Shown one piece after another: positions 14,664-29,829 of a DNA stretch of 47,828 nt; position 1 is the stretch's first letter; each line of letters opens with the position of its first letter. Source of the DNA: Syntrophaceae bacterium (GTDB lineage: Bacteria; Desulfobacterota; SM23-61); NCBI GenBank assembly GCA_013388675.1, contig JACAEW010000025.1, positions 1-47,828 of the forward strand, written 5' to 3'. The notes beneath the pieces were generated by a model that saw nothing but the letters and a program-made list of their open reading frames with translations, was not told where the DNA came from and did no database searches. A program made the position numbers and the translations under genes.

Positions 14664-14751
14664 CCGCCCGGGAAAAAAGAAGAATTCCTTTGTCCGGGGG
14701 CCATGGCGGGGGCGATTCCTGAATGGCCCCTGCAAGACAGAAATTTTTTTC

Positions 14752-14780
14752 TTGACAAAGAATTTTTCCTGTGTTTCAAT
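14752..14780 (+). promoter_or_regulatory. Sigma-70-like promoter of the aromatic supercluster
   Basis: A perfect TTGACA at 14752-14757, a 17-nt spacer, and TTCAAT at 14775-14780 (4 of 6 matches to TATAAT), in an AT-rich stretch. Transcription would begin near 14787, about 22 nt before the aromatic leader peptide ATG. This placement fits an attenuated leader transcript. Confidence 0.65.
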
Positions 14781-14808
14781 TTTAAGAAATTCATTAAAAG
14801 TGAGTTCG

Positions 14809-14901
14809 ATGGACAGGCCCTTGATCACGAAGAATTTTGGCTGGTGGTTTTATTTTTATTATTGCTTCGGAGGGGTCTGCCCATCGGCCAAGACGATCTA
14901 G
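14809..14901 (+). CDS. Aromatic amino acid leader peptide (Trp-Phe-Tyr attenuator)
   Basis: A 30-codon ORF beginning MDRPLITKNFG and continuing with WWFYFYYCF (codons 12-20), then GGVCPSAKTI and a TAG stop at 14899. Nine consecutive residues include two Trp, three Phe and three Tyr. Such a run is the hallmark of a ribosome-stalling leader that senses charged aromatic tRNAs, as in trpL and pheL. AGTGAG lies about 4 nt before the ATG as a weak ribosome site. It follows a TTGACA promoter and is followed by two terminator-type hairpins before aroF, the committed step for all three amino acids. The ORF and codons are seen directly; stalling control is inferred by analogy with classic attenuators. 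Confidence 0.82.
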   Translation: MDRPLITKNFGWWFYFYYCFGGVCPSAKTI

Positions 14902-14923
14902 ACCAAAAGTCTTAATTTAAAAT

Positions 14924-14972
14924 AAAAAGCCATGGGTAGATGAGAGGACGCTATCCATGGCTTTTTTATTTT
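14924..14972 (+). terminator. Attenuator terminator 1 of the aro leader
   Basis: Arm A (14924-14939, AAAAAGCCATGGGTAG) and arm B (14951-14966, CTATCCATGGCTTTTT) pair over 16 bp with one G-U and an 11-nt loop, followed by TTATTTT. This is a strong intrinsic terminator between the leader peptide and aroF. Arm A can instead pair with TGCCCAT at 14878-14884 inside the leader ORF (7 bp, one G-U), and arm B with arm C of the next hairpin (12-13 bp). Those are the alternatives expected of an attenuator. Confidence 0.8.
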
Positions 14973-14978
14973 CTCCCC

Positions 14979-15015
14979 GAAAAGGCCATGGTGGCAAAAA
15001 CCCCATGGCCTTTTT
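14979..15015 (+). terminator. Attenuator hairpin 2, next to the aroF ribosome site
   Basis: Arm C (14980-14991, AAAAGGCCATGG) pairs perfectly with arm D (15003-15014, CCATGGCCTTTT) over 12 bp with an 11-nt loop; the U-run is partly within the stem. The aroF Shine-Dalgarno AGGAGGG starts only 4 nt later. The hairpin may end transcription as a back-up or influence initiation at aroF. Arm C is also complementary to arm B of the preceding terminator. Confidence 0.65.
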
Positions 15016-15033
15016 CACAGGAGGGCAACCGCC

Positions 15034-16062
15034 ATGGTTATCGTCATGAAGAACAACGCCGCCCCGGAACAGGTCCGCAAGGTGGTCGAGTGGATCGAGT
15101 CCGTCGGCTACAAGGCCCATCTTTCCCAGGGGGTGGAGAGGACCCTCATCGGGGCCATCGGGGACGGCCGGGGAAAGGAGCAGATCCAAGCCATGGTCTG
15201 CCTCCCGGGAGTGGAAAAGGTGGTCCCCATCCTGAAGCCCTACAAGCTCGCCAGCCGGGAATTTAAGCCAACGGACACGGTGGTCCGCGTGGGCGGCCTG
15301 GAAATCGGCGGGCCCCGATTGATCGTCATGGCCGGGCCCTGCACCGTGGAGAGCGAAGAGCAGCTCATGGAAAGCGCCTACGTGGTGAAAAAGGGCGGAG
15401 CCCATATCCTGCGGGGCGGCGCCTTCAAGCCGCGGACCTCCCCTTACAGCTTCCAGGGGATGGAAGAAGAGGGTCTGCGTCTTCTGAAAAAGGCCGGGGA
15501 AAGAACCGGGATGCCGGTGGTGACCGAGGTCATGAACACGACCGAGGTGGACCTGGTGGAGGAGTACTCCGACATCCTCCAAATCGGCGCCCGCAACGTG
15601 CAGAACTTCGCCCTCTTGAAGAAGGTCGGCCAGGCCCGCAAACCCGTCCTTCTAAAGAGGGGGATGATGACCACCCTGGAGGAGCTTCTGATGTCGGCCG
15701 AATACGTTCTCTCCGCGGGCAACACCCGGGTCATCCTCTGCGAAAGGGGGATCCGGACCTTCGAGACCGCCACCCGCAACACCCTCGACCTGAGCGCCGT
15801 CGTGGTCCTCAAGGAGTGTTCCCACCTGCCGGTGATCGTCGATCCCAGCCATGCCACGGGTCATTGGAAATACGTCACCCCGCTGGCCCGGGCCGCCGTG
15901 GCCGTAGGGGCCGACGGGCTCCTCATCGAAGTCCACCCGGAGCCGGAAAAAGCGATCTGCGACGGCATCCAGTCGTTGAGGCCGGAAAAGTTCTACCAGC
16001 TCATGGACGACGTGTCCCTTCTCGAGCGGACCCTGAGAAAGGAGGTCCAAAAGCTCCCATGA
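15034..16062 (+). CDS. aroF: 3-deoxy-7-phosphoheptulonate (DAHP) synthase, AroAI-beta/KDOPS-like type with ferredoxin-like N-terminus
   Basis: A 342-residue enzyme that joins PEP and erythrose 4-phosphate, the first step of the shikimate pathway. Residues 1-75 ([18 protein letters not shown] to [12 protein letters not shown]) form the ferredoxin-like regulatory domain known from the Thermotoga enzyme. There it mediates feedback inhibition by Tyr or Phe. The barrel follows with [45 protein letters not shown] and [16 protein letters not shown] lies 8 nt before the ATG. It is the first enzyme gene of the aro-trp supercluster, and its stop overlaps the aroB start (ATGA). Expression is probably set by the leader peptide and hairpins upstream. 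Confidence 0.96.
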
Positions 16063-17152
16063 ATCGCCTGCAAGTGAACTTGAACAGAGTCTCCTCTTCT
16101 TCCTACGAGGTCTTCATCGGTCATCAGATCATGGACCGCATGGCTCTCCTCCTTTCCCGCAAAGGCTGGCCTCGCCGGTACTTTGCGATCACGGATTCCA
16201 ACGTATCCGCCCTTCACGGGGAAAGGGTCCTGGCCATCCTCGGGAGCCTGGGGCTCCAGGTGGAAAAGCTGGAATTCGAGGGAGGGGAGGCCCGAAAGAG
16301 CATTCACACCTGCACCGTTCTGGCGGAACGGTTGATGGAGCAAGGTGCCGACCGGACCTCGGCCCTCATCGCCCTGGGGGGCGGCGTGGTGGGCGATCTC
16401 ACCGCCTTCCTCGCCTCCATCTACATGAGGGGAATTCCCCACGTGCAGGTTCCCACCACCATTCTCGCCCAGGTGGACAGCAGCATCGGCGGCAAAACCG
16501 CCGTGGACCTTCCCGCGGCCAAAACCTCCTGGGGACCTTCACCCAGCCCAAGGCGGTGTTGATCGACCTGGCCTTTCTGGAGACGCTTCCCGACCGGGAG
16601 TTCACCAACGGGCTGGCGGAAATCGTCAAGTACGGGATCATCGACGATCCAGAATTTCTGGCTGAGCTGGCCGCGGGGGCCGAAGCCCTGCGGCGACGGG
16701 ACCCCGTCTTTTTGGAGGGGGTTATCTCCAAATCCTGCCGGATCAAAAAGGGGATCGTGGAAAGCGACGAAACGGACCGGGGGCTGCGCCGCATCCTCAA
16801 CTTCGGACACACCCTGGGCCATGCCATCGAGGCCGAATCCGGGTTTGTCGTGTCCCACGGGGAGGCCGTATCGATGGGGATGTGCGCGGCCGTCCTTCTT
16901 TCCGAACGGTTGAAGTACCTGTCTCCCGGGGACGGGGAGAGAATCCTCTCCGTCATCCAGGCCCTGGGCCTTCCGGTGCGAATCCCCGCTTCCCTGGACA
17001 CGGAATCCCTCCTGCGGGGTTTGAGAAAGGATAAGAAAAAAGAGGGCGACAAGATTCATTTCATTCTCCTGAAGAAGCCGGGGCAGCCCTTCGTGAATGG
17101 AGGGGTTCCCCTGCCTTTGGTGGCGGAAATCATCGAGGGCCTGAAAGCATGA
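16059..17152 (+). pseudogene. aroB: 3-dehydroquinate synthase, interrupted by a one-base frameshift
   Basis: Converts DAHP to 3-dehydroquinate using NAD and a divalent metal. The first frame (16059-16562) starts [11 protein letters not shown] and holds ALGGGVVGDLTAFLASIYMRG and PTTILAQVDSSIGGKTAVD. The rest, from TQPKAVLIDLAFLETLPDREF through NGLAEIVKYGII, NFGHTLGHAIE and SHGEAVSMGM, is in the frame of 16556-17152. The junction reads CCAAAACCTCCTGGGG at 16519-16534. The family sequence GKNLLGTF needs one more A in the run at 16521-16524, so a single-base deletion explains the shift. With it restored, the protein has about 364 residues, normal for AroB. Both parts are otherwise intact, so a sequencing error is as likely as a real mutation. 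Confidence 0.9.
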
Positions 17153-18228
17153 AGAGAAAGACGGTAGAACAAATCCGGAAAGAAATCGCCAGCCGGGACC
17201 GGGAGATTCTCCGGCTGCTCAACCAACGAAGCTCCCTGGCCCAGGAGATGGGCCGAATCAAGGGACGGTTGGGCAAAGAGGTCTACGACCCCTCCCAGGA
17301 GGCCCGCATCCTCTCCTCCCTGGCCGATTTCAACGAAGGGCCCTTGCCGGATGAGGCCTTGAACAACATCTACCGGGAGATTTTCTCTTCCTCCCGGATG
17401 CTGCAGTCGCCCCCGACCGTGGCCTGCCTGGGACCCGAGGCCTCTTTTTCCCATCTGGCCGCTCTCGCCCGATTCGGAAGAAGCTCCCCCATCGTCCTGG
17501 AAAAAACCATCGGTCAGGTCTTCGACCAACTGGAAAAAGGAAAGGTTTCTTTCGGGCTGGTTCCCTTCGAGAATTCGCTCGAGGGATCGGTCAAGATGAC
17601 CCTTGACCGGATGATCTCCACCCCCTTGAAGGTCCGGGCTGAGGTTTTCCTTAGGGTCTCCCACTGCTTGATGTCCCGCGGCCAAGGAACGGAAATCAAG
17701 AAGGTCTATTCCCACCCCCAAGCCCTGGCCCAGTGCCGGGAATGGCTGGCCCGGAACCTTCCCCACGCCGAGGCGGTGGCTACAGACAGCACGGCCACCG
17801 CCGCCCTGCGGGTCCGGGAGGACCCGGATGGAGCCGCCATCGCTAGCTCCCTGGCCGCCAAAGTTTACGGTCTTAACCTTTTGGCCGAGGGGATCGAGGA
17901 CCATCCCATGAATATCACCCGCTTCCTGGTCCTGGGGAACGGGGAGAGCAGGCCCACGGGCCGGGACAAGACTTCGATTTTATTCGGCACCCCCCATGTC
18001 CCCGGGGCCCTTCACGGGACCCTCGGCCCCTTTGCCAAAGCCGGGATCAACCTGCTCCGGATTGAATCCTATCCCCTCCGGGAAAGAGTATGGGAATACC
18101 TCTTCTTCGCTGATTTCGGAGGACACTTGCAAGATAAGAAGGTGCGCGACTGCCTCCGCAAGGTGGAAAAGAAAACGGTCTTCCTCAAAGTCCTGGGGTC
18201 CTATCCGAAGGGGGACGACCGCCGATGA
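17149..18228 (+). CDS. pheA: Bifunctional chorismate mutase / prephenate dehydratase (P-protein)
   Basis: A 359-residue fusion. Residues about 1-90 are an AroQ-type chorismate mutase helix bundle (EQIRKEIASRDREILRLLNQ, GRIK). Residues about 95-275 are prephenate dehydratase (VACLGPEASFSHLAALARFG, PFENSLEGSV, ending in NITRFLVLG with the catalytic Thr-Arg-Phe). Residues about 280-355 are an ACT domain, with GALHGTLGPF and RIESYPLR as the usual Phe-binding GAL and ESRP segments (ESYP here). It makes phenylpyruvate from chorismate and is expected to be feedback-inhibited by Phe. The ATG overlaps the aroB stop region by 4 nt, and its end overlaps aroD by ATGA. Confidence 0.96.
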   Translation: MKRKTVEQIRKEIASRDREILRLLNQRSSLAQEMGRIKGRLGKEVYDPSQEARILSSLADFNEGPLPDEALNNIYREIFSSSRMLQSPPTVACLGPEASFSHLAALARFGRSSPIVLEKTIGQVFDQLEKGKVSFGLVPFENSLEGSVKMTLDRMISTPLKVRAEVFLRVSHCLMSRGQGTEIKKVYSHPQALAQCREWLARNLPHAEAVATDSTATAALRVREDPDGAAIASSLAAKVYGLNLLAEGIEDHPMNITRFLVLGNGESRPTGRDKTSILFGTPHVPGALHGTLGPFAKAGINLLRIESYPLRERVWEYLFFADFGGHLQDKKVRDCLRKVEKKTVFLKVLGSYPKGDDRR

Positions 18229-18998
18229 TTTGCGTATCGGTCATGGCCGGGAGCAACCACGAGGCGATACGCATGATGAAGCGGGGGTTCGCCCTGGCCG
18301 ATATGGTCGAGCTCCGTTTGGACCGGATTGTCCGCCCGGCCCTTCCTGCCCTGATAAAGGCCCGGGAAGGAACCCTTCTGGTCACCAACCGGCGCAAGGA
18401 GGAAGGGGGTTTTTTTGAAGGCTCCGAGAAGGACCGCGTGGGTTTGCTCGCCCAGGCCGCGAACCTGGGAGCGGATTACCTGGACGTGGAAGCCGGCACG
18501 GGAAAACAGGGGATTGGCCGGCTGAAGGCCGAAATCGGGGCCAAGGCTACCCGGATGATCGTCTCCCACCATGATTTTCAGAGAACCCCCCCCTGGAACG
18601 GCCTGGTCAGAAGGCTTGACGCCTGCCGGGCTTACGGGGCGCACGCGGTAAAGATCGTCACCTTGGCCCGGTCGATGGAAGACAATATCCGGCTCATGCG
18701 CATCATCCCCAGGTCCCTGGCACAGGGGCAGCCCATCATCGCTTTCTGCATGGGCCCCCTGGGGCGGGTCAGCCGTATTCTCGCTCCCCTCCTGGGTTCG
18801 TTCCTAACCTATGTCAGCCTTCGGAAGGGAGCCGAGTCCGCGCCCGGGCAATTCACCGTGGGAGAGATGCGAAAAATCATGGGCCTCCTGGGTTTTGAGG
18901 ATTCCCGGATTCGTCGCCCCCTCGGGGCCGGGAGTTCCAGGGCGTCCAGACAGGCAAAGCCCGAAGGAGAAAGGTTGAGGCCTGGCCAGCAATCGTAG
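18225..18998 (+). CDS. aroD: 3-dehydroquinate dehydratase, type I
   Basis: A 257-residue Schiff-base class I enzyme converting 3-dehydroquinate to 3-dehydroshikimate. It begins MICVSVMAGSNHEAI. Visible motifs are MVELRLDRI, IVSHHDFQRTP with the catalytic His, HAVKIVTLARS with the Schiff-base Lys, and FCMGPLGRVSRILAPLLGS near the end. The catalytic fold ends near residue 230. The last 20-odd residues (SRASRQAKPEGERLRPGQQS) look non-homologous, and the TAG stop lies inside a dispersed palindrome at 18995-19022. The ATGA overlap with pheA indicates translational coupling. Confidence 0.95.
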   Translation: MICVSVMAGSNHEAIRMMKRGFALADMVELRLDRIVRPALPALIKAREGTLLVTNRRKEEGGFFEGSEKDRVGLLAQAANLGADYLDVEAGTGKQGIGRLKAEIGAKATRMIVSHHDFQRTPPWNGLVRRLDACRAYGAHAVKIVTLARSMEDNIRLMRIIPRSLAQGQPIIAFCMGPLGRVSRILAPLLGSFLTYVSLRKGAESAPGQFTVGEMRKIMGLLGFEDSRIRRPLGAGSSRASRQAKPEGERLRPGQQS

Positions 18999-19022
18999 AG
19001 GCGATTCATGAATCGCCCTTAC
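18995..19022. repeat. Dispersed palindrome, GGCGATTCATGAATCGCC family, copy 1
   Basis: GTAGAGGCGATTCATGAATC followed by GCCCTTAC. The first bases supply the aroD stop codon (TAG, 18996-18998). Related copies lie at 19895-19923, 29063-29090 and 36621-36645. Confidence 0.85.
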
Positions 19023-19078
19023 ACAGGCCTTGTGACGTGGATGCTTACAAATTGCCGATTGTTGCTCAAGGATCCGTT

Positions 19079-19912
19079 ATGCCTGAAAAACCACGACTCT
19101 TTGCCCTGTTCGGAAATCCCGTGGGCCACAGCCTTTCCCCATTGATACATAACGCGGCCTATGAGGCAATGAATCTTTCAGCCCAATACATCGCCCTGGC
19201 CGTGCCCGATGGGAAAACGGCGTTGCATCGGATGCGGGAGATGGGGATCGAGGGGGCCAGCGTGACCATCCCCCTGAAAACCGCCATCATGGCTCAGCTG
19301 GATGAAATTGACGACAACTCCCACGCTATCGGCGCGGTCAACACCCTTTGGGCCCGGGAAGGAAGAATCCTCGGGGGCAACACCGATTGGGCCGGGTTCA
19401 CCCGGAGCCTGAAAGAGCATTTTGATTTGCGGGGCAAGACCTTTGCCATCCTGGGCTCCGGGGGCGCCGCCCGGGCCGCGGTCTTCGGCATCCGGCGGGA
19501 AGGGGGATATCCCACCGTCTTCTCCCGTAACCCTGAAACGGGTATCGCCCTGGCTCAGGATTTCCATTGCCCTTACCGGCCTCTATCCGACCTGGAAAAG
19601 GTGGAAGCCCACTGCCTGGTCAACACCACTCCGGTGGGGATGTCTCCAAATGCGGCGGGGATCCCGGTTCCGCCCGCAATCCTGTCCCGCTTTGCGTGGG
19701 TAATGGACCTGGTATACAACCCCTTGAGAACCAGGCTCCTGCGGGAAGCGGAGGAGGCCGGATGCGGCGTGATCACCGGCCTTCCCATGCTCGTCCACCA
19801 GGGCGCCGAGCAGGTCCGGGTCTGGACCGGGAAAGAGCCCCCGGTCGGTTTGATGCATCGAGTTGCGGAAGAGGAGCTCCTGCGGCGGTCTGCAGATAGG
19901 GGCGATTCATGA
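19079..19912 (+). CDS. aroE: Shikimate dehydrogenase (NADP-dependent)
   Basis: A 277-residue enzyme reducing 3-dehydroshikimate to shikimate. The N-terminal substrate domain has GNPVGHSLSPLIHNAAYEA (Ser-x-Ser shikimate contact), VTIPLKTAIM with catalytic Lys, GAVNTLW and NTDWAGF with catalytic Asp. The Rossmann part has AILGSGGAARA; MLVHQGAEQVRVWTG completes the domain. ATG 19079 has AGGA 8 nt upstream and gives MPEKPRLFALFGNP. A GTG at 19037 would add 14 residues and is less likely. The final codons (DRGDS and stop TGA) are encoded by a dispersed palindrome, so the natural C-terminus has been replaced or extended. Confidence 0.94.
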   Translation: MPEKPRLFALFGNPVGHSLSPLIHNAAYEAMNLSAQYIALAVPDGKTALHRMREMGIEGASVTIPLKTAIMAQLDEIDDNSHAIGAVNTLWAREGRILGGNTDWAGFTRSLKEHFDLRGKTFAILGSGGAARAAVFGIRREGGYPTVFSRNPETGIALAQDFHCPYRPLSDLEKVEAHCLVNTTPVGMSPNAAGIPVPPAILSRFAWVMDLVYNPLRTRLLREAEEAGCGVITGLPMLVHQGAEQVRVWTGKEPPVGLMHRVAEEELLRRSADRGDS

Positions 19913-19923
19913 ATCGCCCCTAC
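19895..19923. repeat. Dispersed palindrome, GGCGATTCATGAATCGCC family, copy 2
   Basis: GATAGGGGCGATTCATGAAT followed by CGCCCCTAC. It supplies the aroE stop TGA (19910-19912) and an overlapping in-frame ATG (19909) for the aroA frame. Confidence 0.88.
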
Positions 19924-19956
19924 GAACCACCCGGCAAAAAGGAACTGCAATCAGAA

Positions 19957-21225
19957 ATGTCCGAACCGATCGAAATCCGACCCGTTTCCGGAATCCATGC
20001 CTCCGTCCGCGTGCCGGGCTCCAAAAGCTATACCCAAAGGGCCCTGATCATTGCCTCGCTGGCCGAAGGGAAGTCCTTCCTCCGAGGTCCCCTGATCTCC
20101 GAGGATACGGAGTACTTGAGCGAGGCGCTGCGAGTCCTCGGCGCGGATATCCTCCTTTCGGGCCAGGACCTCGCCATAACCGGGACGGGAGGAAGGCTCT
20201 CCCCTCCGGGACGACCGATCTATCTGGGGAATAACGGAACCGCCGCCCGATTTCTCCTCGGCATGGTCTCATTGGGGAACGGAGATTACCATCTCAGCGG
20301 GTCCTCCCGTCTTTGCCAGAGGCCGGTGAAACCCCTCTTGGACGCACTCCTCTCCTTGGGAGGCTCCTTTACCTGCGAGGGAGAACAGGGGTTTCTTCCC
20401 CTGACCGTCCATGCTCGAGGAATCCGGGGCGGGCAAGCCGCCTTTGCCGATGCGGAAAGCAGCCAATACATTTCTTCCTTGCTGATCTGCTCTCCCTTCG
20501 CTTCGGGCGACGTGGAAATTATGGTGCGGGGTTCGTTGGCCTCCCGTCCCTACGTGAACCTAACTCTAAAGACCATGAAAGATTTCGGGGTCAGTGCGGA
20601 AAGGGTTGGGGAAAATCGCTTCCGAGTGCGAAGCGGTCAACGCTACTGCGGAACTGATTATGCCGTCGAGGGCGATGCTTCCAGCGCATCCTATTTTTTC
20701 CTGGCCGCCGCCCTCAGTCGAGGGTCGGTCCGAGTCTCCCCGCTGACCCGCGACACCCTCCAGGGAGACGGAAATTTTCTTACCCTGCTGGAAAAGCTGG
20801 GGTGTACCGTTTCTTCCCGGGAATCCTGGGTCGAGGTGAAAGGAAACCCCCTGAGGGCTGGAGAATTCGTTTTCGACATGGGTGATATACCGGACATGGT
20901 TCCCACCCTGGCCGTTCTTTCCGCCGTTCGTCCGGGCCGGACCGTCATCCGCAACGTGGCCCACCTGCGGATCAAAGAGAGCAACCGTTTGGAGGCGCTG
21001 GCCAGGGAACTTGCCAAGACCGGGATCCGGGTGGAGGAAAGGGAGGATGGATTGGTCATCGAAGGGGGCAGGCCCCGGGGGGCGGAGATCGAGACGTACG
21101 ACGACCACCGCATCGCCATGAGCTTTGCCGTACTCGGACTCGCAGTCCCGGGCATGCGCATTCGCAACGGGAGTTGCGTGGGCAAATCTTTTCCCGGCTT
21201 CTGGAAAGAACTGGGGAAGCTGTAA
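19957..21225 (+). CDS. aroA: 3-phosphoshikimate 1-carboxyvinyltransferase (EPSP synthase)
   Basis: A 422-residue enzyme joining PEP to shikimate 3-phosphate. Motifs: RVPGSKSYTQRALIIASLAE with the shikimate-phosphate-binding Lys-Ser, LGNNGTAARFLLG (PEP site), SSRLCQRPVKPLLDALLSLG, then VEGDASSASYFFLAAA and VRNVAHLRIKESNRLEAL-like (here RNVAHLRIKESNRL), and TYDDHRIAM near the end. The start chosen is MSEPIEIRPVSG at 19957. An upstream in-frame ATG at 19909 falls inside a dispersed palindrome and would add 16 residues of repeat-derived sequence. It sits 12 nt before the shikimate kinase gene, as part of the cluster. Confidence 0.95.
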   Translation: MSEPIEIRPVSGIHASVRVPGSKSYTQRALIIASLAEGKSFLRGPLISEDTEYLSEALRVLGADILLSGQDLAITGTGGRLSPPGRPIYLGNNGTAARFLLGMVSLGNGDYHLSGSSRLCQRPVKPLLDALLSLGGSFTCEGEQGFLPLTVHARGIRGGQAAFADAESSQYISSLLICSPFASGDVEIMVRGSLASRPYVNLTLKTMKDFGVSAERVGENRFRVRSGQRYCGTDYAVEGDASSASYFFLAAALSRGSVRVSPLTRDTLQGDGNFLTLLEKLGCTVSSRESWVEVKGNPLRAGEFVFDMGDIPDMVPTLAVLSAVRPGRTVIRNVAHLRIKESNRLEALARELAKTGIRVEEREDGLVIEGGRPRGAEIETYDDHRIAMSFAVLGLAVPGMRIRNGSCVGKSFPGFWKELGKL

Positions 21226-21236
21226 GGGGATAGCCC

Positions 21237-21911
21237 ATGAATCTTATCCTCATCGGGTTGCGCGCATCGGGAAAGACATCGGTAGGAAAGAAACTCTCCC
21301 GCCTTCTTGGATTTTCCTTCTACGACACCGACGAACTGATCCGGCGGCAGACCGGGAAGACGGTGCGGGAAATGGTCCAGGAAGGTGGATGGCCGGGCTT
21401 CCGCCGGGCCGAAAGGGAGGTCATCGCCGGCCTTGCGGGAAAAGAAGAGTCGGTCATTGCGCTGGGGGGCGGGGCGGTCCTGGACCCCGCCAATGTGGAG
21501 GCCTTAAAGCCCCGGGGCTTTTTCATCTGGCTTCAGGCCGAGAGAGAAACGATCCAAGAACGTCTGCAAGGAGACCGGGGAAGCGCCGAACAGAGGCCCC
21601 CTCTTTCCGGTTCAGCGGACGGGGGCGAAGAAGAAATCCGGAAACGGCGGATTCCCTTCTATGAAGCAGTCGCCGACCTGACCTTTGATACAACCGGGCT
21701 AAGCGTCGAAGGCGTGGCGGAAGAAATTTTCTCGGCCGTAAAAAATCGGGGTCTTTCGGGCCGGGGCAAGGGCGGGTCGCGCACCGCCCCTACGGATTCT
21801 GGCCGAAGGCTCTCTTTTTCCGCGCAGGGTCGCGGAAAAAGCCTGGGTTCTTCGGGCGATGAATCCGCCGAAGATGGAATGGGAGAGGCGAAATGTCCGG
21901 AAATACGCTAG
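21237..21911 (+). CDS. aroK: Shikimate kinase with repeat-derived C-terminal tail
   Basis: Phosphorylates shikimate at the 3-OH. Core residues 1-170 show the P-loop GLRASGKTS (7-15), DTD (30-32), shikimate-binding Arg in GFRRAE (about 56), IALGGGAVLD, the lid Arg in EQRPPLS, and RIPFYEAVADLTFDT. The usual kinase ends near residue 172. The remaining 50 residues (from GKGGSRTAPTDSG onward) are the translation of a dispersed element at 21766-21870, so the C-terminus is an accident of repeat insertion. It overlaps the aroC start by 19 nt. This is the canonical kinase of the window; a divergent paralogue lies at 37616. Confidence 0.94.
   Translation: MNLILIGLRASGKTSVGKKLSRLLGFSFYDTDELIRRQTGKTVREMVQEGGWPGFRRAEREVIAGLAGKEESVIALGGGAVLDPANVEALKPRGFFIWLQAERETIQERLQGDRGSAEQRPPLSGSADGGEEEIRKRRIPFYEAVADLTFDTTGLSVEGVAEEIFSAVKNRGLSGRGKGGSRTAPTDSGRRLSFSAQGRGKSLGSSGDESAEDGMGEAKCPEIR
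21766..21870. repeat. Composite dispersed palindromic element inside the aroK 3' end
   Basis: GGGCGGGTCGCGCACCGCCC plus CTACGG, followed by CTTTTTCCGCG and CGCGGAAAAAG arms around a short loop, then CCTGGGTTCTTCGGGCG. Read in reverse it matches 3871-3963 over most of its length. It encodes about 35 of the terminal residues of AroK. Confidence 0.8.
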
Positions 21912-22945
21912 GGGTGCTCTTTCGGGTAACGACCTGGGGAGAATCTCACGGCCCGGCCGTGGGAGCGGTCGTGGACGGTTGCCCTCCCGGCCTCGAACTG
22001 GGCGCCGATGAAATCCAACGGCAGCTCGACCGGCGAAGACCCGGAACCGGTTCGGGAATTTCGCCCCGGCAGGAAGAAGACCGGGTGGAAATTCTTTCGG
22101 GGGTCCACCGGGGACTGACAATCGGAACCCCCATCGCCCTTCTCATTCGCAACCGGGAAGCGAAAAGCCGGGACTATGAATCCCTGGAAGATATTTTTCG
22201 CCCGGGGCACGGAGATTGGACCTACTTCAAGAAATACGGCCTCCGGGACCCCCGCGGGGGCGGGCGGGCTTCGGGGCGGGAAACAGCGGCCCGCGTGGCC
22301 GCTGGAGCCGTGGCCCGAAAAGTCATCTCCCGGGCGGGAATCGAGGTCTATGCGTTTACTTTCGAACTGGGCGGAATCGCCGTCGAGGATTTTTCCCCGG
22401 CGGAAATCGGAAAAAACGGATTGCTCTGCCCCGATTGCCGGGCGGCAAAAAGAATGGCTGAAAAGATCGAGGCCGCCGGGGCCGAAGGGGATTCTCTGGG
22501 CGGCATCGTGGAGGTCCGGGTCACCGGTTGCCCGCCCGGCCTGGGAGAGCCCGTCTTCGACAAAATGGATGCCGACCTGGCGAAGGCGCTCATGAGCCTG
22601 GGCACGGTGAAAGGAGTCGAAATCGGCGCCGGATTCGAAGCCCCCCGGATGAAAGGTTCCGTGTCCAACGACGCCATGGTTCCGGGTGGCTTCAAGACCA
22701 ATCACGCGGGAGGGGTCCTGGCCGGAATTACCAACGGAGAGGAGATCGTGATTCGGGCGGCCTGCAAGCCCATTCCCTCCATCCGGAAGGAGCAGGAGAC
22801 CTTTGACCTCCACGGAAACCCGCGCCGGATTTCCGTCGGGGGAAGGCACGACGTCTGTGTCATCCCCCGGATCATACCGGTATGTGAAGCTATGGTCTGC
22901 ATCGTCCTGGCCGACCATCTCTTGCGGCAAAAATCGATTTCCTAA
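21893..22945 (+). CDS. aroC: Chorismate synthase
   Basis: A 350-residue, FMN-dependent enzyme converting EPSP to chorismate, the branch point for Phe, Tyr and Trp. It begins MSGNTLGVLFRVTTWGESHG, the conserved GESHG region. Visible motifs are DGCPPGLEL, RRRPGTGSG, DYESLEDIFRPGHGDWTY, the Arg-rich GGGRASGRETAARVAAGAVA, and the C-terminal SIRKEQETFDL and GRHDVCVIPR. Length is normal. The start lies within the extended aroK frame, so it is translated in an overlapping frame. The large opposite-strand frame here is a shadow. Confidence 0.97.
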   Translation: MSGNTLGVLFRVTTWGESHGPAVGAVVDGCPPGLELGADEIQRQLDRRRPGTGSGISPRQEEDRVEILSGVHRGLTIGTPIALLIRNREAKSRDYESLEDIFRPGHGDWTYFKKYGLRDPRGGGRASGRETAARVAAGAVARKVISRAGIEVYAFTFELGGIAVEDFSPAEIGKNGLLCPDCRAAKRMAEKIEAAGAEGDSLGGIVEVRVTGCPPGLGEPVFDKMDADLAKALMSLGTVKGVEIGAGFEAPRMKGSVSNDAMVPGGFKTNHAGGVLAGITNGEEIVIRAACKPIPSIRKEQETFDLHGNPRRISVGGRHDVCVIPRIIPVCEAMVCIVLADHLLRQKSIS

Positions 22946-22979
22946 GGCCCGTGCCTCAGAACTTATCGTTAAATAAATG

Positions 22980-23041
22980 TCTGCGTATAAATCCCCCTTT
23001 GAAAAAATCCCCCCAACTCCCCTTATTTCAAAGGGGGGCAT
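22980..23041. repeat. Dispersed CCCCTTTGAAA...TTTCAAAGGGG inverted repeat
   Basis: AATCCCCCTTTGAAAAAATC and CCCTTATTTCAAAGGGGGGC form a long imperfect hairpin between aroC and tyrA. Related elements lie at 27434-27493 and in the 36296-36432 stretch. It may act as a weak processing or termination site inside the cluster. Confidence 0.7.
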
Positions 23042-23089
23042 ATTGATTTCGGACAAGTTGGTAGTTCGAGGAGAGAAGAAGGGTGGCCC

Positions 23090-23914
23090 ATGAACGGCTT
23101 AGAATCCAAAGATAGATTTCCCGTGGGAATCATCGGCGGCACGGGCGGGATGGGGCAGTGGTTTGCCCGGTTCCTGGAAGGTGAAGGATACCCAGCCATT
23201 GTCTCCGGCAGAAAGGCCGGTCCCGCCCCCGCGGAGATGGCCCGGCTGTGCCCGGCGGTGGTGGTGAGCGTTCCCATCCAGGTGACCGGTCAAATCATTC
23301 GGGAGGTCGGCCCTTTCCTGAAACCGGAATCGCTGCTTATGGACCTTACGTCGCTCAAAGCTGAGCCGGTTCGGGCCATGCTGGAGTTCTCTTCCTCCGA
23401 GGTCATCGGCCTTCATCCTCTCTTCGGCCCGGGCGAGGATTCGCTCGCGGGGAAGAATGTCGCCCTCTGCCCGGCACGGGGGGAAAAATGGCTGCCCTGG
23501 TTGCGAGGGCTCTTGGAAAGCAACGGGGCCCGCCTAGTGGAGACCACCCCGGAGCGGCACGATGAAATCATGGCGCTGGTCCAAGGCATCAACCATCTGG
23601 ACACGCTGGCCCTGGGAATGGTGCTGATGGGGTCCGGCCTGGACCGGCAAGTCCTGGAACGTTTTTCAACCCCCATCCTGCAAACCAAGTTGGGAATCAT
23701 CCAAAAGGTCTTTTCCAACCCGGACCTCTACGCCCCGATCATTGCCCTGAATCCCCACCTCCGGCAGATCATGGGCCTCTTCGAAAGAAAGTTCGCCGAA
23801 CTCAGGCGCATCGTGGAAAAAGGGGACCCGGAAGAACTTCGCCAACGAATTCTCCAGGAGGCCGCGGGGGCCACGCCCGGAGGGTTTCATTTTACGGCCG
23901 CCCCAGGGAGATAA
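23090..23914 (+). CDS. tyrA: Prephenate dehydrogenase (TyrA family)
   Basis: A 274-residue NAD(P)-dependent enzyme oxidising prephenate to 4-hydroxyphenylpyruvate. The Rossmann glycine motif IIGGTGGMGQWFARFL is at about residues 14-29. The catalytic region shows VIGLHPLFGPGEDSLAGKN with the conserved His, and RHDEIMALVQGINHLDTLAL further on. No mutase or ACT domain is fused, so allosteric Tyr control may be weak or absent. An AGAAGGGTGG lies upstream of the ATG. It is the last gene before the trp leader, whose mini-ORF begins 5 nt after its stop. Confidence 0.92.
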   Translation: MNGLESKDRFPVGIIGGTGGMGQWFARFLEGEGYPAIVSGRKAGPAPAEMARLCPAVVVSVPIQVTGQIIREVGPFLKPESLLMDLTSLKAEPVRAMLEFSSSEVIGLHPLFGPGEDSLAGKNVALCPARGEKWLPWLRGLLESNGARLVETTPERHDEIMALVQGINHLDTLALGMVLMGSGLDRQVLERFSTPILQTKLGIIQKVFSNPDLYAPIIALNPHLRQIMGLFERKFAELRRIVEKGDPEELRQRILQEAAGATPGGFHFTAAPGR

Positions 23915-24138: not shown

Positions 24139-25647
24139 ATGTACCATCCTTCTTTTGCCGAGTTTCAAGAGCTGGCCCAAAAGGGAAACCTGGTTCCTGT
24201 TTACCGGGAGATTCTGGCCGACGAGGAAACCCCGGTCACGGCTTTGATGAAGATCAGCCGCCGGCCCTATGCCTTCCTCCTGGAAAGCGTGGAAGGGGGA
24301 GAGAAGTGGGGCCGATACACCTTCCTGGGCGCCGACCCGAAGGCCGTCTTTAGGATTAGGGCCGGCATCGTTGAGGTTCAGGAAAACGGATGTACCCGAT
24401 GGGTAAGGCCGGAGGCAAACCCCCTGGCCTGCCTGAAGGACCTCCTGAGCCGTCATCGCCCCGTATTCCCGGCTGGACTCCCCCGGTTCTTCGGCGGGGC
24501 TGTCGGTTATCTTTCCTATGATATGGTCCGTCATTTCGAAAAAAGACTGGCCCGGGCCACGGAAGAGCCCCCGGAGATGGACGACGCGGTTTTTCTCCTT
24601 ACCGATAGCCTTCTGGTATTCGACAACGTGCGACACACGGTCAAGGTCGTGCGCTGCGTCCCGATCCCCGGGGATGCGAAGAATTTGGAGGCTCTCTATG
24701 GGGAAACTACGGAAAGGATCGAAAAAATCATCGACGATCTTCGCCGCCCCCCCGCCTTCTCGCCAGGGGTCCCCTCGCCCGGAGAGAATCGCCCTCCCTT
24801 CCGGCCCAACATGACCCCGGAGGCTTTCAAGGACATGGTCCGCCGGGCGAAAGAATATATATGCGCGGGGGACATTATCCAGGTCGTCCTCTCCCAGCGC
24901 TTCCGGGGAGAAACCAGCATAGACGCAGTCGACCTCTACCGGGCCCTGCGCTTCGTCAACCCCTCTCCTTACCTTTTTTTCCTCAAAATGGGGGACTCTT
25001 ACCTCATCGGCTCATCGCCGGAGGTCATGGTCCGTCTCGAAGACCGGGTCGCCGAGCTCCGCCCCATTGCCGGCACGAAAAAAAGGGGAAGGACGGAGCA
25101 GGAAGACCGGGCGTTGGCCGACGAACTCCTCAACGATCCCAAAGAGAGGGCCGAACATGTCATGCTCGTGGACCTGGGGCGCAACGACCTGGGAAGGATC
25201 GCAAAGGTGGGCAGCGTCCAGGTCAACCAGTATATGACCGTGGAGCGGTATTCCCATGTCATGCACCTGGTCTCCAACGTGCAGGCCCAGCTTTCCGAGG
25301 ACCGGGATTGTTTCGACCTCCTAAAGGCTACCTTTCCCGCCGGAACGTTATCGGGCGCGCCCAAGGTGCGGGCCATGGAGATCATCGACGAGCTGGAGCC
25401 CTGTCCCCGGGGCCCTTACGGCGGGGCCATGGGTTATTTCAGCTTTTCGGGAAATATGGACTTCGGCATCACGATCCGGACCCTGGTCCTGCAGGGGAAT
25501 CGCCTCTCCCTCCAGGTGGGCGCGGGCATCGTGGCCGACTCCGACCCGGACCGGGAATACGAGGAAACTTTGAACAAGGCCGCAGGATTGATGAAGGCGG
25601 TCCGCATTGCTTCCTCGGGGTTTGAAATCATGGCCGAGGGTGAATAG
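24139..25647 (+). CDS. trpE: Anthranilate synthase component I
   Basis: A 502-residue chorismate-utilising subunit that makes anthranilate with ammonia from TrpG. Motifs: AFLLESVEGGEKWGRYTFLG, where LLES belongs to the Trp feedback site; FFGGAVGYLSYDMVRHFE; DIIQVVLSQRF; NPSPYLFFLKMGDSYLIGSS; RPIAGTKKRGRTEQED; DLGRNDLGRI; and FPAGTLSGAPKVRAMEIIDE. ATG 24139 is preceded by GGGAGGTGTT, just downstream of the attenuator terminator; the frame continues open upstream but that part is the attenuator. Expected to be controlled at the RNA level by the leader and at the enzyme level by Trp. Confidence 0.97.
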   Translation: MYHPSFAEFQELAQKGNLVPVYREILADEETPVTALMKISRRPYAFLLESVEGGEKWGRYTFLGADPKAVFRIRAGIVEVQENGCTRWVRPEANPLACLKDLLSRHRPVFPAGLPRFFGGAVGYLSYDMVRHFEKRLARATEEPPEMDDAVFLLTDSLLVFDNVRHTVKVVRCVPIPGDAKNLEALYGETTERIEKIIDDLRRPPAFSPGVPSPGENRPPFRPNMTPEAFKDMVRRAKEYICAGDIIQVVLSQRFRGETSIDAVDLYRALRFVNPSPYLFFLKMGDSYLIGSSPEVMVRLEDRVAELRPIAGTKKRGRTEQEDRALADELLNDPKERAEHVMLVDLGRNDLGRIAKVGSVQVNQYMTVERYSHVMHLVSNVQAQLSEDRDCFDLLKATFPAGTLSGAPKVRAMEIIDELEPCPRGPYGGAMGYFSFSGNMDFGITIRTLVLQGNRLSLQVGAGIVADSDPDREYEETLNKAAGLMKAVRIASSGFEIMAEGE

Positions 25648-25661
25648 AAAGGAGTCAAGGC

Positions 25662-26249
25662 ATGGTTTTCATGATCGACAATTACGATTCCTTCACTTAC
25701 AACCTGGTCCAATACCTGGGCCAGCTCGGCGCTGATGTGGCCGTGCGCCGGAACGACGAAGTCACCATCGGGGAAATCGAGAGGATGAACCCCGAAGCCA
25801 TTTTCCTCTCCCCCGGACCCTGCACTCCAAAGGAAGCCGGCATCACCGTGGAGGTGATCCGGCATTTCCATAAATCCCTTCCCATCCTGGGGGTCTGCCT
25901 CGGCCACCAGGCTATCGGTTATGCTTTTGGGGCCGAAGTGGTCCGGGCCGACCGCCTTATGCATGGCAAGACCTCGCCAATCTTCAATGACGGGCGGACG
26001 ATCTTTCGCGGTCTCCCCAACCCTTTCCCCGCAGGCCGTTATCACTCCCTCCTGGTCAGGAGGGAGACGCTTCCCCCCATTTTCGAGGTAAGCGCGGAAA
26101 CGAAGGAAGGCGAGGTCATGGCCATCCGTCATTGCCGGTACCCCCTGGAAGGGGTTCAATTTCATCCCGAATCCGTGCTCACCCCGAGCGGAAAGAGGAT
26201 TTTGAGAAATTTCCTGGATCATCATACCAAGGAAAAGAGTGGAATGTAA
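25662..26249 (+). CDS. trpG: Anthranilate synthase component II (glutamine amidotransferase)
   Basis: A 195-residue class I amidotransferase that releases ammonia from glutamine for TrpE. It starts MVFMIDNYDSFTYNLVQYLG. The nucleophile Cys is in LGVCLGHQAIGYA and the His-Glu pair is in GVQFHPESVLTPSG. The conserved MHGKTSPI is also present. AAAGGAG precedes the ATG 14 nt after the trpE stop. It might also serve PabB, as in many bacteria, but no pabB is visible here. Confidence 0.96.
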   Translation: MVFMIDNYDSFTYNLVQYLGQLGADVAVRRNDEVTIGEIERMNPEAIFLSPGPCTPKEAGITVEVIRHFHKSLPILGVCLGHQAIGYAFGAEVVRADRLMHGKTSPIFNDGRTIFRGLPNPFPAGRYHSLLVRRETLPPIFEVSAETKEGEVMAIRHCRYPLEGVQFHPESVLTPSGKRILRNFLDHHTKEKSGM

Positions 26250-26291
26250 CCAACTCGTTATCCATAAAGGACAATCAATTTGATTGCCCAT

Positions 26292-26395
26292 GCTCGTAGG
26301 ACCGGGTTTGAAACCCGCCCTCACAGATTAATAAAATCACCCCCACCTTCCCTTCCCAACCTGAGGGAGAGGGTTGGGGTGGGGGGGAAAGGAAG
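26292..26395. repeat. Dispersed palindrome and G-rich repeat between trpG and trpD
   Basis: GTAGGACCGGGTTTGAAACC followed by CGCCCTCAC (26297-26325) is a copy of the GGGCGGGTTT/AAACCCGCCC family. It is followed by CCTTCCCTTCCCAACC and AGGGAGAGGGTTGGGGTGGG (about 26345-26385), a second family seen also near 4275. The trpD Shine-Dalgarno follows directly. Confidence 0.7.
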
Positions 26396-26400
26396 GAATT

Positions 26401-27411
26401 ATGATCCAGGAAGCATTGGCCAAGGTGGTTCGGAGAATCGACCTTGGGGAAACCGAGATGGCTGAGGCCATGGAAGAAATCATGGAAGGAAAGGCCACCC
26501 CAGCTCAGGTCGGGGGGTTGCTCACCGCCTTGCGGATGAAGGGAGAAACCGTGGAGGAGGTGACCGGCGCCGCCCGGGTCATGAGGCAAAAAGCCACCCG
26601 CATCGATGCCCGGTCCTCGATCGTCGTGGATACCTGCGGCACGGGGGGGGACGGGCAGAAGACATTCAACATCTCCACCACCACGGCCTTCGTCGTGGCG
26701 GCGGCGGGTTTGACCGTGGCCAAGCACGGCAACCGCGCCGTCTCCAGCCGCTGCGGAAGCGCCGATGTCCTCGAGGCGCTGGGAGTCCGCATCGATGTTT
26801 CCCCCGATGTAGTCGAGGAGTGCCTGCAGCAGATCGGAATCGGCTTTCTCTTCGCTCCCAAACTGCACGGCGCCATGAAAAATGCCATCGGACCCCGCCG
26901 GGAGCTCGGCCTGAGGACGATCTTCAACATGCTGGGGCCCCTGACGAACCCGGCCTCAGCCACCGCCCAGCTCATCGGGGTTTACGACCCGAAGCTCACC
27001 GAAATGTTTGCGGGCGTTCTCCGGAACCTGGGAACCCGCAGGGCCTTTGTGGTCCACGGTTCGGACGGATTGGATGAGGCCACGGTGACCGGAGAAACAA
27101 GGGTGTCGGAGCTGAAAGACGGAAGGATCACTACCTACAACATCCACCCCATGGAATTTTTCGGCGGGGCCTTCGGGGCCGAAGAATTGACCGGCGGGGA
27201 TGCTTTCACCAATGCCGCCGTCACCCGGGCGATCCTCGCCGGAAAAGATGGGGCCCCCCGGAAAATTGTGCTGCTGAATGCCGCTCTGGCCATCGTAGCC
27301 GGGGGAAAGGCCGAAACGATCCGCGAAGGGGTCCGATTGGCCGAAGAATCCCTCGACAGCGGCGGCGCGGGGAAAAAACTCGAAGCGCTCGTCGAGCTTA
27401 CCAATAGTTGA
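26401..27411 (+). CDS. trpD: Anthranilate phosphoribosyltransferase
   Basis: A 336-residue enzyme transferring phosphoribose from PRPP to anthranilate. Motifs: [16 protein letters not shown] (PRPP site), [20 protein letters not shown] (anthranilate site), [34 protein letters not shown] and [13 protein letters not shown] 26401 follows GGAAGGAATT. The GTG-initiated longer frame from 26374 reads through the G-rich repeat and is rejected. It is a stand-alone gene and not fused to trpG. Confidence 0.96.
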
Positions 27412-27433
27412 CGCGAGTTAAGACATATTTGTT

Positions 27434-27560
27434 TTTAAAAGGCCTTCCCAGAAATCCCTTCCGTCTTCCCTTTTTCAAAGGGAGGAGACCTTCTGGGGAA
27501 TCGGCGGTGAAAGATTCCCCTTTTCCGCCTTGATAAAAGGGGGAGGGAGGGGGATTTGAC
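27434..27560. repeat. Dispersed TCCCTTTTTCAAAGGGA repeat upstream of trpC
   Basis: TTAAAAGGCCTTCCCAGAAA, then CTTCCCTTTTTCAAAGGGAG, continuing with further C- and G-rich tracts to about 27555. The 27434-27493 part is similar to the reverse complement of 36369-36432, so the two are inverted copies of one element. No gene is seen between trpD and trpC. Confidence 0.7.
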
Positions 27561-27600
27561 GGGTTTTCGAAAGGCTGAAATTTCCGGTTACGAGGAAGCC

Positions 27601-28380
27601 ATGTTTCTGGAAAAAATACTGGAGCATAAGAAAAAGGAGGTGGCCGAGCGCAAGGCCCTTCTTCCGCTCCCCGAGATTAAGCGACGAGTGGAGGAGATTC
27701 CAGCCCCTCTCGACTTTGAGGGGGCGGTCCGCTCCCGCTGCGGGGCCCTCATAGCGGAAGTAAAGAGAAGTTCCCCCTCCAGGGGGAGAATCCGGGAAGA
27801 CTTTGACCCCGCAGCGATCGCTCGATTGTACGCGGAAAACGGCGCAGCCGCCATTTCAGTTCTAACCGACCAGCGTTTCTTCGAGGGCCGCGACTCTTTT
27901 CTGCCCCAGGTCCGAAAGAGCGTGCCGATTCCGCTTCTCCGCAAGGACTTCATCATCGATCCCTACCAGATTTATGAAACCCGGCTCCTGGGCGGGGATG
28001 CCATCCTCTTGATCGCCCGGGCGCTGGGAAACGCCCCGCTGGGGGAATTCATCCGCCTATCCCTCGAACTGGGCCTTTCTTCCCTGGTTGAAATACACGA
28101 CGAAGCCGATTTGGAAAAGGCGGTCTCCGCTGGGGGGCGGACGATCGGGATCAACAACCGGGACCTCTCCACCTTCTCCACCGACCTGGAAACCTCCCTC
28201 CGCCTGGCCCCCCTTCTGCCCGTGGGAGTCACGGTCGTCAGCGAGAGCGGCATCCGGTCCCGCCGCGACGTCGAAAGGTTAAGGGCGGCCGGAGTCCATG
28301 GGTTTTTAGTGGGCGAGGCTCTTATGGCGGCTGCGGACATAGCCGGGAAAACCCGGGAGCTTGCGGGTTTGGGGGAGTAA
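27601..28380 (+). CDS. trpC: Indole-3-glycerol-phosphate synthase
   Basis: A 259-residue TIM-barrel enzyme that closes the indole ring. It begins MFLEKILEHKKKEVAERKAL. Motifs: LIAEVKRSSPSRG with catalytic Lys, ISVLTDQRFFEG, PLLRKDFIIDPYQIYE with catalytic Lys, GINNRDLSTF, and VVSESGIRSRRDVERL followed by GFLVGEALM. ATG 27601 follows GAGGAAGCC. The frame extends to a TTG at 27556 without conserved sequence. It ends 3 nt before trpF, so the two are coupled. Confidence 0.96.
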   Translation: MFLEKILEHKKKEVAERKALLPLPEIKRRVEEIPAPLDFEGAVRSRCGALIAEVKRSSPSRGRIREDFDPAAIARLYAENGAAAISVLTDQRFFEGRDSFLPQVRKSVPIPLLRKDFIIDPYQIYETRLLGGDAILLIARALGNAPLGEFIRLSLELGLSSLVEIHDEADLEKAVSAGGRTIGINNRDLSTFSTDLETSLRLAPLLPVGVTVVSESGIRSRRDVERLRAAGVHGFLVGEALMAAADIAGKTRELAGLGE

Positions 28381-28383
28381 AGA

Positions 28384-29079
28384 ATGACCCAGATCAAAAT
28401 TTGCGGAATCACGAATCGGGAAGATGCCTTGATTGCCCTCCATGCGGGGACCGATGCCCTCGGTTTCATTTTTTATCCCGCCAGCCCCCGTTTTGTAAAG
28501 CCGGAACGGGTCAGGGAAATTACCGGCGGGCTCCCCGGGAGAATCTGCCGGGTGGGAGTCTTCGTGGACGAAGCCCCGGAAGAGGTCAGGCGGATCGTCC
28601 GGTTCTGCGGCCTTGACCTCATCCAGCTCCACGGGAAGGAGTCCCCGGCTTACTGCGCCCTTTTTTCCCCCGCGGTTCTCATCAAAGCCGTATCCCTCCG
28701 CACGGCGCAGGACTTGGCCGTCTTGGGCGATTATCCGGTAAAGGCCATTCTGGTGGACGCCGGCGATTCAGAACGACCAGGCGGCACGGGCAGGACGTGC
28801 GATTGGAGCCTGGCCAAAAGAGCGGGAGAAAGGCATGGAATCATCTTGGCCGGGGGACTCCATCCGGGAAATATCCTTTCAGCCCTTGAAACGGTTTGTC
28901 CCGGGGCCGTTGATGTGGGGAGCGGGGTGGAGGAGCGGCCCGGGAAAAAGGACCCTAAAAAAGTAAAAAACCTGGTGGCTGAGGTGAAGGGATTCAGGAA
29001 TCCCCACAGGCTGGCCCATTCCAGCCCCATTTTTCAAAGAGAAGGGAAGATTATACCCAATTGTGGGGGCGATTCATGA
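28384..29079 (+). CDS. trpF: Phosphoribosylanthranilate isomerase
   Basis: Isomerises PRA to CdRP. Motifs: QIKICGITNREDA with catalytic Cys, ALGFIFYPASPRFV, VGVFVDEAPEEV, LDLIQLHGKESPAYC, AILVDAGD with catalytic Asp, IILAGGLHPGNI and GAVDVGSGVEERPGKKDPKKV. The isomerase normally ends about 205 residues in. Here the frame runs on for some 25 residues and stops in a dispersed palindrome (…CGGDS, stop TGA at 29077), so the tail is repeat-derived. It is the last gene of the supercluster; trpB and trpA do not follow. Confidence 0.95.
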   Translation: MTQIKICGITNREDALIALHAGTDALGFIFYPASPRFVKPERVREITGGLPGRICRVGVFVDEAPEEVRRIVRFCGLDLIQLHGKESPAYCALFSPAVLIKAVSLRTAQDLAVLGDYPVKAILVDAGDSERPGGTGRTCDWSLAKRAGERHGIILAGGLHPGNILSALETVCPGAVDVGSGVEERPGKKDPKKVKNLVAEVKGFRNPHRLAHSSPIFQREGKIIPNCGGDS

Positions 29080-29090
29080 GTCGCCCTTAC
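29063..29090. repeat. Dispersed palindrome, GGCGATTCATGAATCGCC family, copy 3
   Basis: GTGGGGGCGATTCATGAGTC followed by GCCCTTAC. It supplies the trpF stop in the same reading frame as at aroE, giving the same terminal residues Gly-Asp-Ser. Its arms carry one change from the palindrome. Confidence 0.85.
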
Positions 29091-29154
29091 GACGATGGCC
29101 GATTTAGGATGAGGGATTTTTCCAATAAGCTGATGCGCCCTCCGAATGAATGTT

Positions 29155-29173
29155 TTCAGACAAATTGTCTGAA
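29155..29173. promoter_or_regulatory. Perfect 19-nt inverted repeat, candidate operator
   Basis: TTCAGACAAATTGTCTGAA: two 9-nt arms around a single central A, in a gene-free stretch (29080-29437) downstream of trpF. There is no T-run, so it is not a terminator. The form is that of a binding site for a dimeric regulator (GntR/FCD-type sites can look similar). The regulated gene and regulator are unknown. The rest of this gap shows only AT-rich sequence and a possible promoter fragment. Confidence 0.4.
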
Positions 29174-29404
29174 TTCCCGCATAACTACAATTTCTTAAAA
29201 GATTTCAACAGCCTAGCCCTTTTGAAGAGTTCTAGCCTGTATATTTGGGCGCAATTTCTACATCTCAGAATATTAGCCGAATAGGAAGTAATTTCTTTCC
29301 CAGCCATTTCTTTTTTTCCTGCTGATTGACTAGTTTCTCGAATTCAATAGGGTTTTTTCCTCCCTCTCTTTACCCGCCCCGTTCCGAATCTAAATATTTT
29401 TCCT

Positions 29405-29421
29405 TTGGCCCCAAACTTGCT
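29405..29421 (+). promoter_or_regulatory. Candidate sigma-54 promoter-like sequence
   Basis: TTGGCCCCAAACTTGCT has the GG-N10-GC spacing and TTGC of sigma-54 promoters, with two mismatches at lesser positions. It would start transcription near 29432, leaving only about 6 nt before the chosen ATG at 29438 and excluding a Shine-Dalgarno. It may therefore be fortuitous. Confidence 0.25.
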
Positions 29422-29437
29422 GAAGAGCAACTCGATT

Positions 29438-29794: not shown

Positions 29795-29829
29795 CTCTTC
29801 CTTAATTAAAAAAAAAGGAGAAGGTAGAG

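Follow-up and report, generated by a model that had tools for sequence, protein, structure and literature searches.

Attenuators of the Escherichia coli type, known from trp, phe, his, and leu operons, share a simple logic: a leader ORF with many codons for the operon's product, a downstream intrinsic terminator, an antiterminator that excludes it, and release of the antiterminator by ribosome stalling. A single leader may also carry codons for more than one of the amino acids that its operon makes; those of ilvGMEDA and thrABC report the branched-chain amino acids, or threonine plus isoleucine. Comparative studies by Vitreschak in 2004 and Lopatovskaya in 2010 reportedly predicted leader-peptide attenuators across proteobacteria and other bacteria, and their predictions may overlap with deltaproteobacterial cases.

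For aroF, which encodes 3-deoxy-7-phosphoheptulonate (DAHP) synthase, the open literature searched describes leaders in other lineages. A Phe-Tyr-Phe leader was predicted upstream of aroF in Corynebacterium glutamicum, among many predicted small transcripts (PMC4046766). In Acholeplasma, the uORFC-13-1 motif places a uORF and a terminator ahead of aroF and has been proposed to sense phenylalanine; at least 1 Phe codon is encoded by a U run, and the 24 examples come from Acholeplasma and environmental DNA (PMC8632094). Attenuation of E. coli aroF appears in PMC8632094 as an earlier hypothesis, cited there.

Here we analyze a leader upstream of aroF in a Syntrophaceae bacterium. All positions refer to the window, the whole stretch of 47,828 nucleotides that was analyzed. 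The host genome comprises 353 contigs, and the closest named relatives of its AroF belong to uncultured Deltaproteobacteria and Syntrophobacterales. We conclude that the element is very probably a ribosome-mediated transcription attenuator that senses charged tRNA-Trp, tRNA-Phe, and tRNA-Tyr together, a reading that draws on sequence comparison and folding.

Promoter and leader ORF

The leader ORF lies on the forward strand at 14809-14901: 30 codons and a TAG stop, translating as MDRPLITKNFGWWFYFYYCFGGVCPSAKTI. Its 9 putative regulatory codons (F10, W12, W13, F14, Y15, F16, Y17, Y18, and F20) occupy 14836-14868 and contain the run WWFYFYYCF that a sequence-only reading of this DNA had singled out. 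That reading also placed a TTGACA promoter ahead of the ORF. A scan that allows other -10 forms recovers such a candidate, of sigma-70 type, at 14752-14780 (+), with TTGACA at 14752-14757, a 17-nt spacer, and the -10 hexamer TTCAAT at 14775-14780 extended by an upstream TG (14772-14780). A fixed-consensus scan returned no promoter on this strand because it demands A at the second position of the -10. With one leader taken per family, TTGACA or a 5/6 match is similarly placed ahead of most leaders. If used, the promoter would start transcription roughly 20 nt before the leader begins. The Shine-Dalgarno sequence, judged by eye, is weak, and translation of the ORF is predicted.

Short ORFs are common, numbering 722 in the window, and one could lie in an intergenic region by chance. 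The codon content speaks against this: at least 7 aromatic codons among 9 consecutive ones occur in the leader alone of those 722, and in none of 4427 ORFs in 247 kb of DNA from relatives. At least 8 of 9 were seen neither in 60 shuffles of the whole window nor in 2000 of the local 334 nt. The aromatic codon density of the leader is far beyond chance. As the leader is moreover conserved across families, a chance ORF is already refuted, and we give it practically no weight.

Conservation ahead of aroF

AroF relatives were gathered within the phylum and among named genomes, and the DNA upstream of each gene was examined for leaders. At 69 aroF loci, a terminator follows an aromatic leader, in agreement with the conserved codons and covarying hairpins that the sequence-only reading had proposed to look for in relatives. 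Tryptophan, phenylalanine, and tyrosine codons are all present in 58 of these leaders. The same reading had expected a leader for all 3 amino acids to be unusual; it is instead the rule for aroF in this phylum.

The order of residues drifts from leader to leader (WWFYFYY, FWYYFYYY, YWYYTYF, FYFWFGFYF), and membership in the W/F/Y class is kept. This drift bears on the possibility that ribosomes stall on a nascent arrest peptide and not for lack of charged tRNA. Peptides rich in aromatic residues can be awkward to translate; yet an arrest peptide fits poorly with a residue order that is not conserved and with a composition that follows the product of the downstream gene (see below), and we hold it to be very unlikely.

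Aromatic leaders also stand before aroF in Acidobacteria (L058, L066, L072, L088), Calditrichota (L057), and Planctomycetaceae (L110). Their RNA sequence is different, and they are possibly independent attenuators.

The downstream operon

The leader precedes a 14-gene operon on the same strand, aroF-B-pheA-D-E-A-K-C-tyrA-trpEGDCF. The first gene, aroF, spans 15034-16062. It is followed by aroB (3-dehydroquinate synthase, 16059-17152), recognized by its ORFs, its position, and a partial match to aroB of relatives; pheA (chorismate mutase/prephenate dehydratase, 17149-18228); aroD, aroE, aroA, aroK, aroC, and tyrA (18225-23914); and trpE, trpG, trpD, trpC, and trpF (24139-29079), where trpD, trpC, and trpF were identified by ORF queries that match collinear genes in relatives. 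The aroB gene is split between 2 frames by an apparent frameshift near 16,550, either because the gene is broken or through an error in sequencing. Past trpF (29,079-29,830) the operon stops, and it does not contain trpBA; a search for trpB elsewhere in the genome gave only partial or distant matches.

Because of this gene content, the leader fronts nearly the whole pathway to tryptophan, phenylalanine, and tyrosine and not its first step alone. Control at the DAHP synthase step, as originally suggested, is too narrow a description of the unit that follows.

Two terminators and their competing strands

Two hairpins with U-tracts separate the leader from aroF, and both covary in relatives. In terminator 1, arm A (14924-14939) pairs over 16 bp with arm B (14951-14966, with the U-tract); the hairpin has a z-score of -4.9 and is better than 200 of 200 shuffles, which bears out the 16-bp intrinsic terminator recognized earlier at 14924-14966. 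The second hairpin joins arm C (14984-14994) to arm D (15001-15010), with A-U pairs that extend it to 14980-15014 (z -3.5, again better than 200 of 200 shuffles). It had been read as a plain hairpin at 14980-15014. The hairpin is there, but UUUUU follows it directly (15011-15015), which makes it a second intrinsic terminator (14984-15015). Terminator 2 was detected at 31 of the 69 aroF loci.

Several strands compete for these arms. Segment 1 (UCUGCCCAU, 14876-14884), formed by the last leader codons, is the candidate antiterminator strand and pairs with 14932-14940 at arm A; a pairing of this kind had been foreseen at 7 bp, and it extends to 9 bp. Among the aroF loci, the median distance from the first base of the final aromatic codon to the start of segment 1 is 8 nt, and a median of 9 nt separates the end of segment 1 from the stop. 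Segment 0, at the start-codon region (14807-14820), forms a further strong hairpin with the leader end (14873-14886), hereafter 0:1. Finally, the core of arm B (14955-14962) can pair with arm C (14984-14991). All 4 arms share a CCATGG-like palindromic core, and every cross-pairing is therefore inflated, B:C included.

Coevolution of the pairing strands

Each segment was paired with the partner from its own locus and with partners from other loci, using 1 locus per taxonomic family; this sampling was adopted after clustering by pairwise DNA identity had lumped all elements together. Segment 1 and arm A show a strong cognate preference (mean -20.7 kcal/mol vs -16.1 for shuffled partners; z -7.6, p 5e-5, n=31). 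The control pairings 1:B, 0:A, and 1:C give z-scores of 0.1, 0.2, and -0.5. Standard pairs fill 94% of the 1:A cells in alignment A2 and 96% in A3, and sliding the partner on A3 lowers this to 36-45%. In some lineages, the helix has been wholly replaced: CAUCGACCCG:CGGGUUGAUG in L045, GGAACCC:GGGUUCC in L191, and GGGUGUGCC with GGCCACCC in L190. These observations point to segment 1 as an antiterminator that is mutually exclusive with terminator 1.

The terminators themselves coevolve (A:B z -12.8, C:D z -6.4, 1 locus per family), and together with 0:1 they are 80% paired on the alignment, against 31-47% when slid. Support is weaker for the 0:1 hairpin and the B:C switch than for 1:A. Across families, 0:1 reaches z -2.0 (p 0.027); the re-pairing of arm B with arm C, part of the original proposal, is borne out less strongly than 1:A, with z -3.6 (p 2.5e-4, n=14). 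Poor conservation of 0:1 across families and the occurrence of terminator 2 at 31 of 69 loci mark these 2 parts as accessory.

One alternative within the attenuator scheme is that terminator 1 and the 1:A pairing alone matter, with terminator 2 as a back-up and B:C as a by-product of the shared CCATGG core. The restriction of the second terminator to just those 31 loci fits it, as do the single terminator of a copy before iorA in the same genome (see below) and the slight cognate effect of the A:D control (z -2.0). Against it, B:C is stronger than that control and 91.5% paired on the alignment, and polymerase that escapes terminator 1 would still be stopped by terminator 2 if B:C did not form. 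We regard this simpler scheme as quite possible, although we lean away from it; support for the B:C step, without which terminator 2 would not be defeated, is moderate.

Folding with a stalled ribosome and proposed mechanism

The window RNA was folded with a blocked ribosome footprint and as partial transcripts in which A is made and B is incomplete. With the A site at codons 10-20, the 1:A probability is 0.76-1.00; it is near 0 at codons 3-7 and from codon 22 to the stop, and intermediate at codons 8 and 9. All 9 aromatic codons (10, 12-18, and 20) fall inside the stretch whose stalling fully frees segment 1. In these in silico folds, it is the regulatory codons and not the stop that release the antiterminator. 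In the ribosome-free fold, the start-codon region holds segment 1 and A:B forms. In the full-length RNA at equilibrium, A:B always outcompetes 1:A, even with a stalled ribosome. The switch would consequently have to be kinetic. A kinetic decision is usual for attenuators.

We propose the following sequence of events. When no ribosome is present, 0:1 would pair and leave arm A free for arm B, and transcription would stop at either of the 2 terminators; the start-codon hairpin probably adds a default-off state in this manner. A shortage of any 1 of the 3 aromatic aminoacyl-tRNAs would stall the ribosome in codons 10-20, so that 0:1 opens and segment 1 can pair with the emerging arm A. Terminator 1 would be blocked; arm B, released, would pair with arm C, terminator 2 would fail too, and the operon would be transcribed. 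When all 3 are plentiful, the ribosome would reach the stop codon and cover segment 1, so that both terminators could form. The stall switch of the sequence-only reading, in which 1:A and B:C oppose termination, agrees with the ribosome-constrained folding and the coevolution of 1:A and, less strongly, with that of B:C.

The same chassis before other genes

Copies of the RNA chassis GTCTGCCC...GCCRTGGGYAGA are spread over the phylum, and their leader codons fit the downstream gene. A search of 297 genomes from the phylum with the pattern GTCTGCCCN{35,65}GCCRTGGGYAGA, taken from the window element, yields 31 matches, and 0 with the pattern reversed. Of these genomes, 177 contain a match to a covariance model that spans segment 1 through terminator 1; about 100 phylum matches exceed 42 bits, and the best match in 18 named control genomes of other phyla scores 27.5 bits. 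The counts from this model are lower bounds, since the aroF copies of Geomonas and Pelobacter escape it.

A second copy in the host genome (G000:C253:2059-2150, minus strand; L230, L332) carries the leader MGSRILNLWWWWWGKKRGGVCP, with the run WWWWW, before iorA, the gene for the alpha subunit of indolepyruvate ferredoxin oxidoreductase (IOR). Similar Trp runs precede iorA in relatives (L241, L279, L284, L285, L303), and control of iorA by Trp codons suggests a biosynthetic role of IOR. Leaders of the form WWCW, WWRWWW-like, or WGWWW stand before trpD and trpE, and FWWCWWWC before an aroF-trpEGDCF operon. Before the phenylacetate-CoA ligase gene paaK, on the same chassis, the aromatic codons are all Phe (n=3; L235, L280, and L281; FFRFRFFGFFGGFFF). 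Mixed aromatic runs precede aroK-aroC and type I DAHP synthases.

Mixed W/F/Y leaders are also found before 2-amino-3,7-dideoxy-D-threo-hept-6-ulosonate (ADTH) synthase, joined by 3-dehydroquinate synthase II where the DNA was read (L222-L224, L226-L228, L273, L275, L282, L288, L292, L294, L298, L299, L305-L307, and L323). These copies include genomes of the host's own family that lack the window-type AroF. ADTH synthase starts the archaeal-type pathway and is non-homologous to DAHP synthase; one RNA chassis serves 2 unrelated first-step enzymes of the same pathway.

The share of W among aromatic codons averages 0.12 before common-pathway genes (n=90) and 0.82 before Trp genes (n=12), with a Mann-Whitney p of 9e-9 that is a guide only, as the rows are phylogenetically non-independent and genes were sorted into classes manually.

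Other matches broaden the picture. FFFF, Phe-rich, or Tyr-rich leaders occur before Liv-type (Peripla_BP_6) binding proteins (L286, L311, L312, L314, L319, L329; L309, L325), for which they predict transport of aromatic compounds. A WWW leader with the chassis precedes a Phenol_MetA_deg outer-membrane-type protein (L289, G270:C42). In L225 (G032:C51), a strong chassis match lies about 265 nt from a downstream glutamine-amidotransferase-like gene, and its leader, MITSNKCMCNTSQPSAHGEVTGKIPL, shows no obvious run of codons. A weak third match in the host genome (G000:C129:12307-12407, minus strand; L326; 38.6 bits) encodes a Lys-rich peptide, with a dapA-like gene about 370 nt further on; a leader for lysine would be unusual. 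In L328 (G290:C4), an LLLCL peptide stands before a leuA-like gene, and the chassis may reach beyond aromatic genes.

The constancy of the chassis bears on one more explanation: that the element is a short ORF with 2 ordinary terminators, and that aroF is controlled by a T-box, a metabolite riboswitch, or a protein that binds the leader RNA. Such elements do regulate aromatic genes elsewhere. At the gathering threshold, however, Rfam finds only a tRNA in the window and no family in 7 other copies of the chassis; at 14700-15060, no leader-peptide family matches up to an E-value of 5, and the T-box family has no match at the element. Riboswitch or T-box identity was rejected, there being no Rfam match of any kind to the element. 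It is the codons, and a strand within the reading frame, that are most strongly constrained; from one downstream gene to another, the codons vary on a constant RNA chassis. Control by any of these other routes appears highly improbable next to ribosome-mediated attenuation.

On balance, we favor the view that these elements form an undescribed, phylum-wide RNA regulatory family, in which a portable chassis has its codons rewritten for each gene. Its aromatic regulon would include the DAHP and ADTH synthases, chorismate and trp genes, IOR (Trp), PaaK (Phe), and transporters. The leader codons would then be a readable prediction of what is made or imported: Trp for IOR, Phe for PaaK, and Phe or Tyr for 2 kinds of Liv-type binding protein. 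They suggest that these anaerobes use IOR and PaaK to make aromatic amino acids from arylacetates. Transporter specificity, and which way arylpyruvate metabolism runs in uncultured anaerobes, become directly testable, and the window element offers a short, cheap test of the integration of 3 amino acids by 1 leader.

Comparison with described attenuators

In the open literature searched, we found no description of a tri-aromatic leader, of this chassis, or of such an element in this lineage, in keeping with the sequence-only reading, which knew of no example in the lineage. Among the aroF leaders that have been described, that of C. glutamicum resembles ours in that a leader peptide is predicted to precede the gene for DAHP synthase; it differs in being actinobacterial, with a short Phe/Tyr run and no Trp mentioned. 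Compared by its description, uORFC-13-1 follows the same logic in another lineage, with no Trp or Tyr codons reported. The ilvGMEDA and thrABC leaders are the precedent for reading several amino acids at once, whereas the window leader reads all 3 aromatic ones, in a mix that tracks gene content.

By every sequence test, the element is a leader-peptide attenuator, with the parts of the classical E. coli type. It departs from that type in where its antiterminator lies: the strand is the leader's own 3' coding end, the last leader codons, and pairs directly with the 5' arm of the terminator. In addition, it has tandem terminators, reads 3 amino acids jointly, matches no Rfam family, and belongs to a chassis that is reused with rewritten codons. 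These features make it a variant of the classical attenuators.
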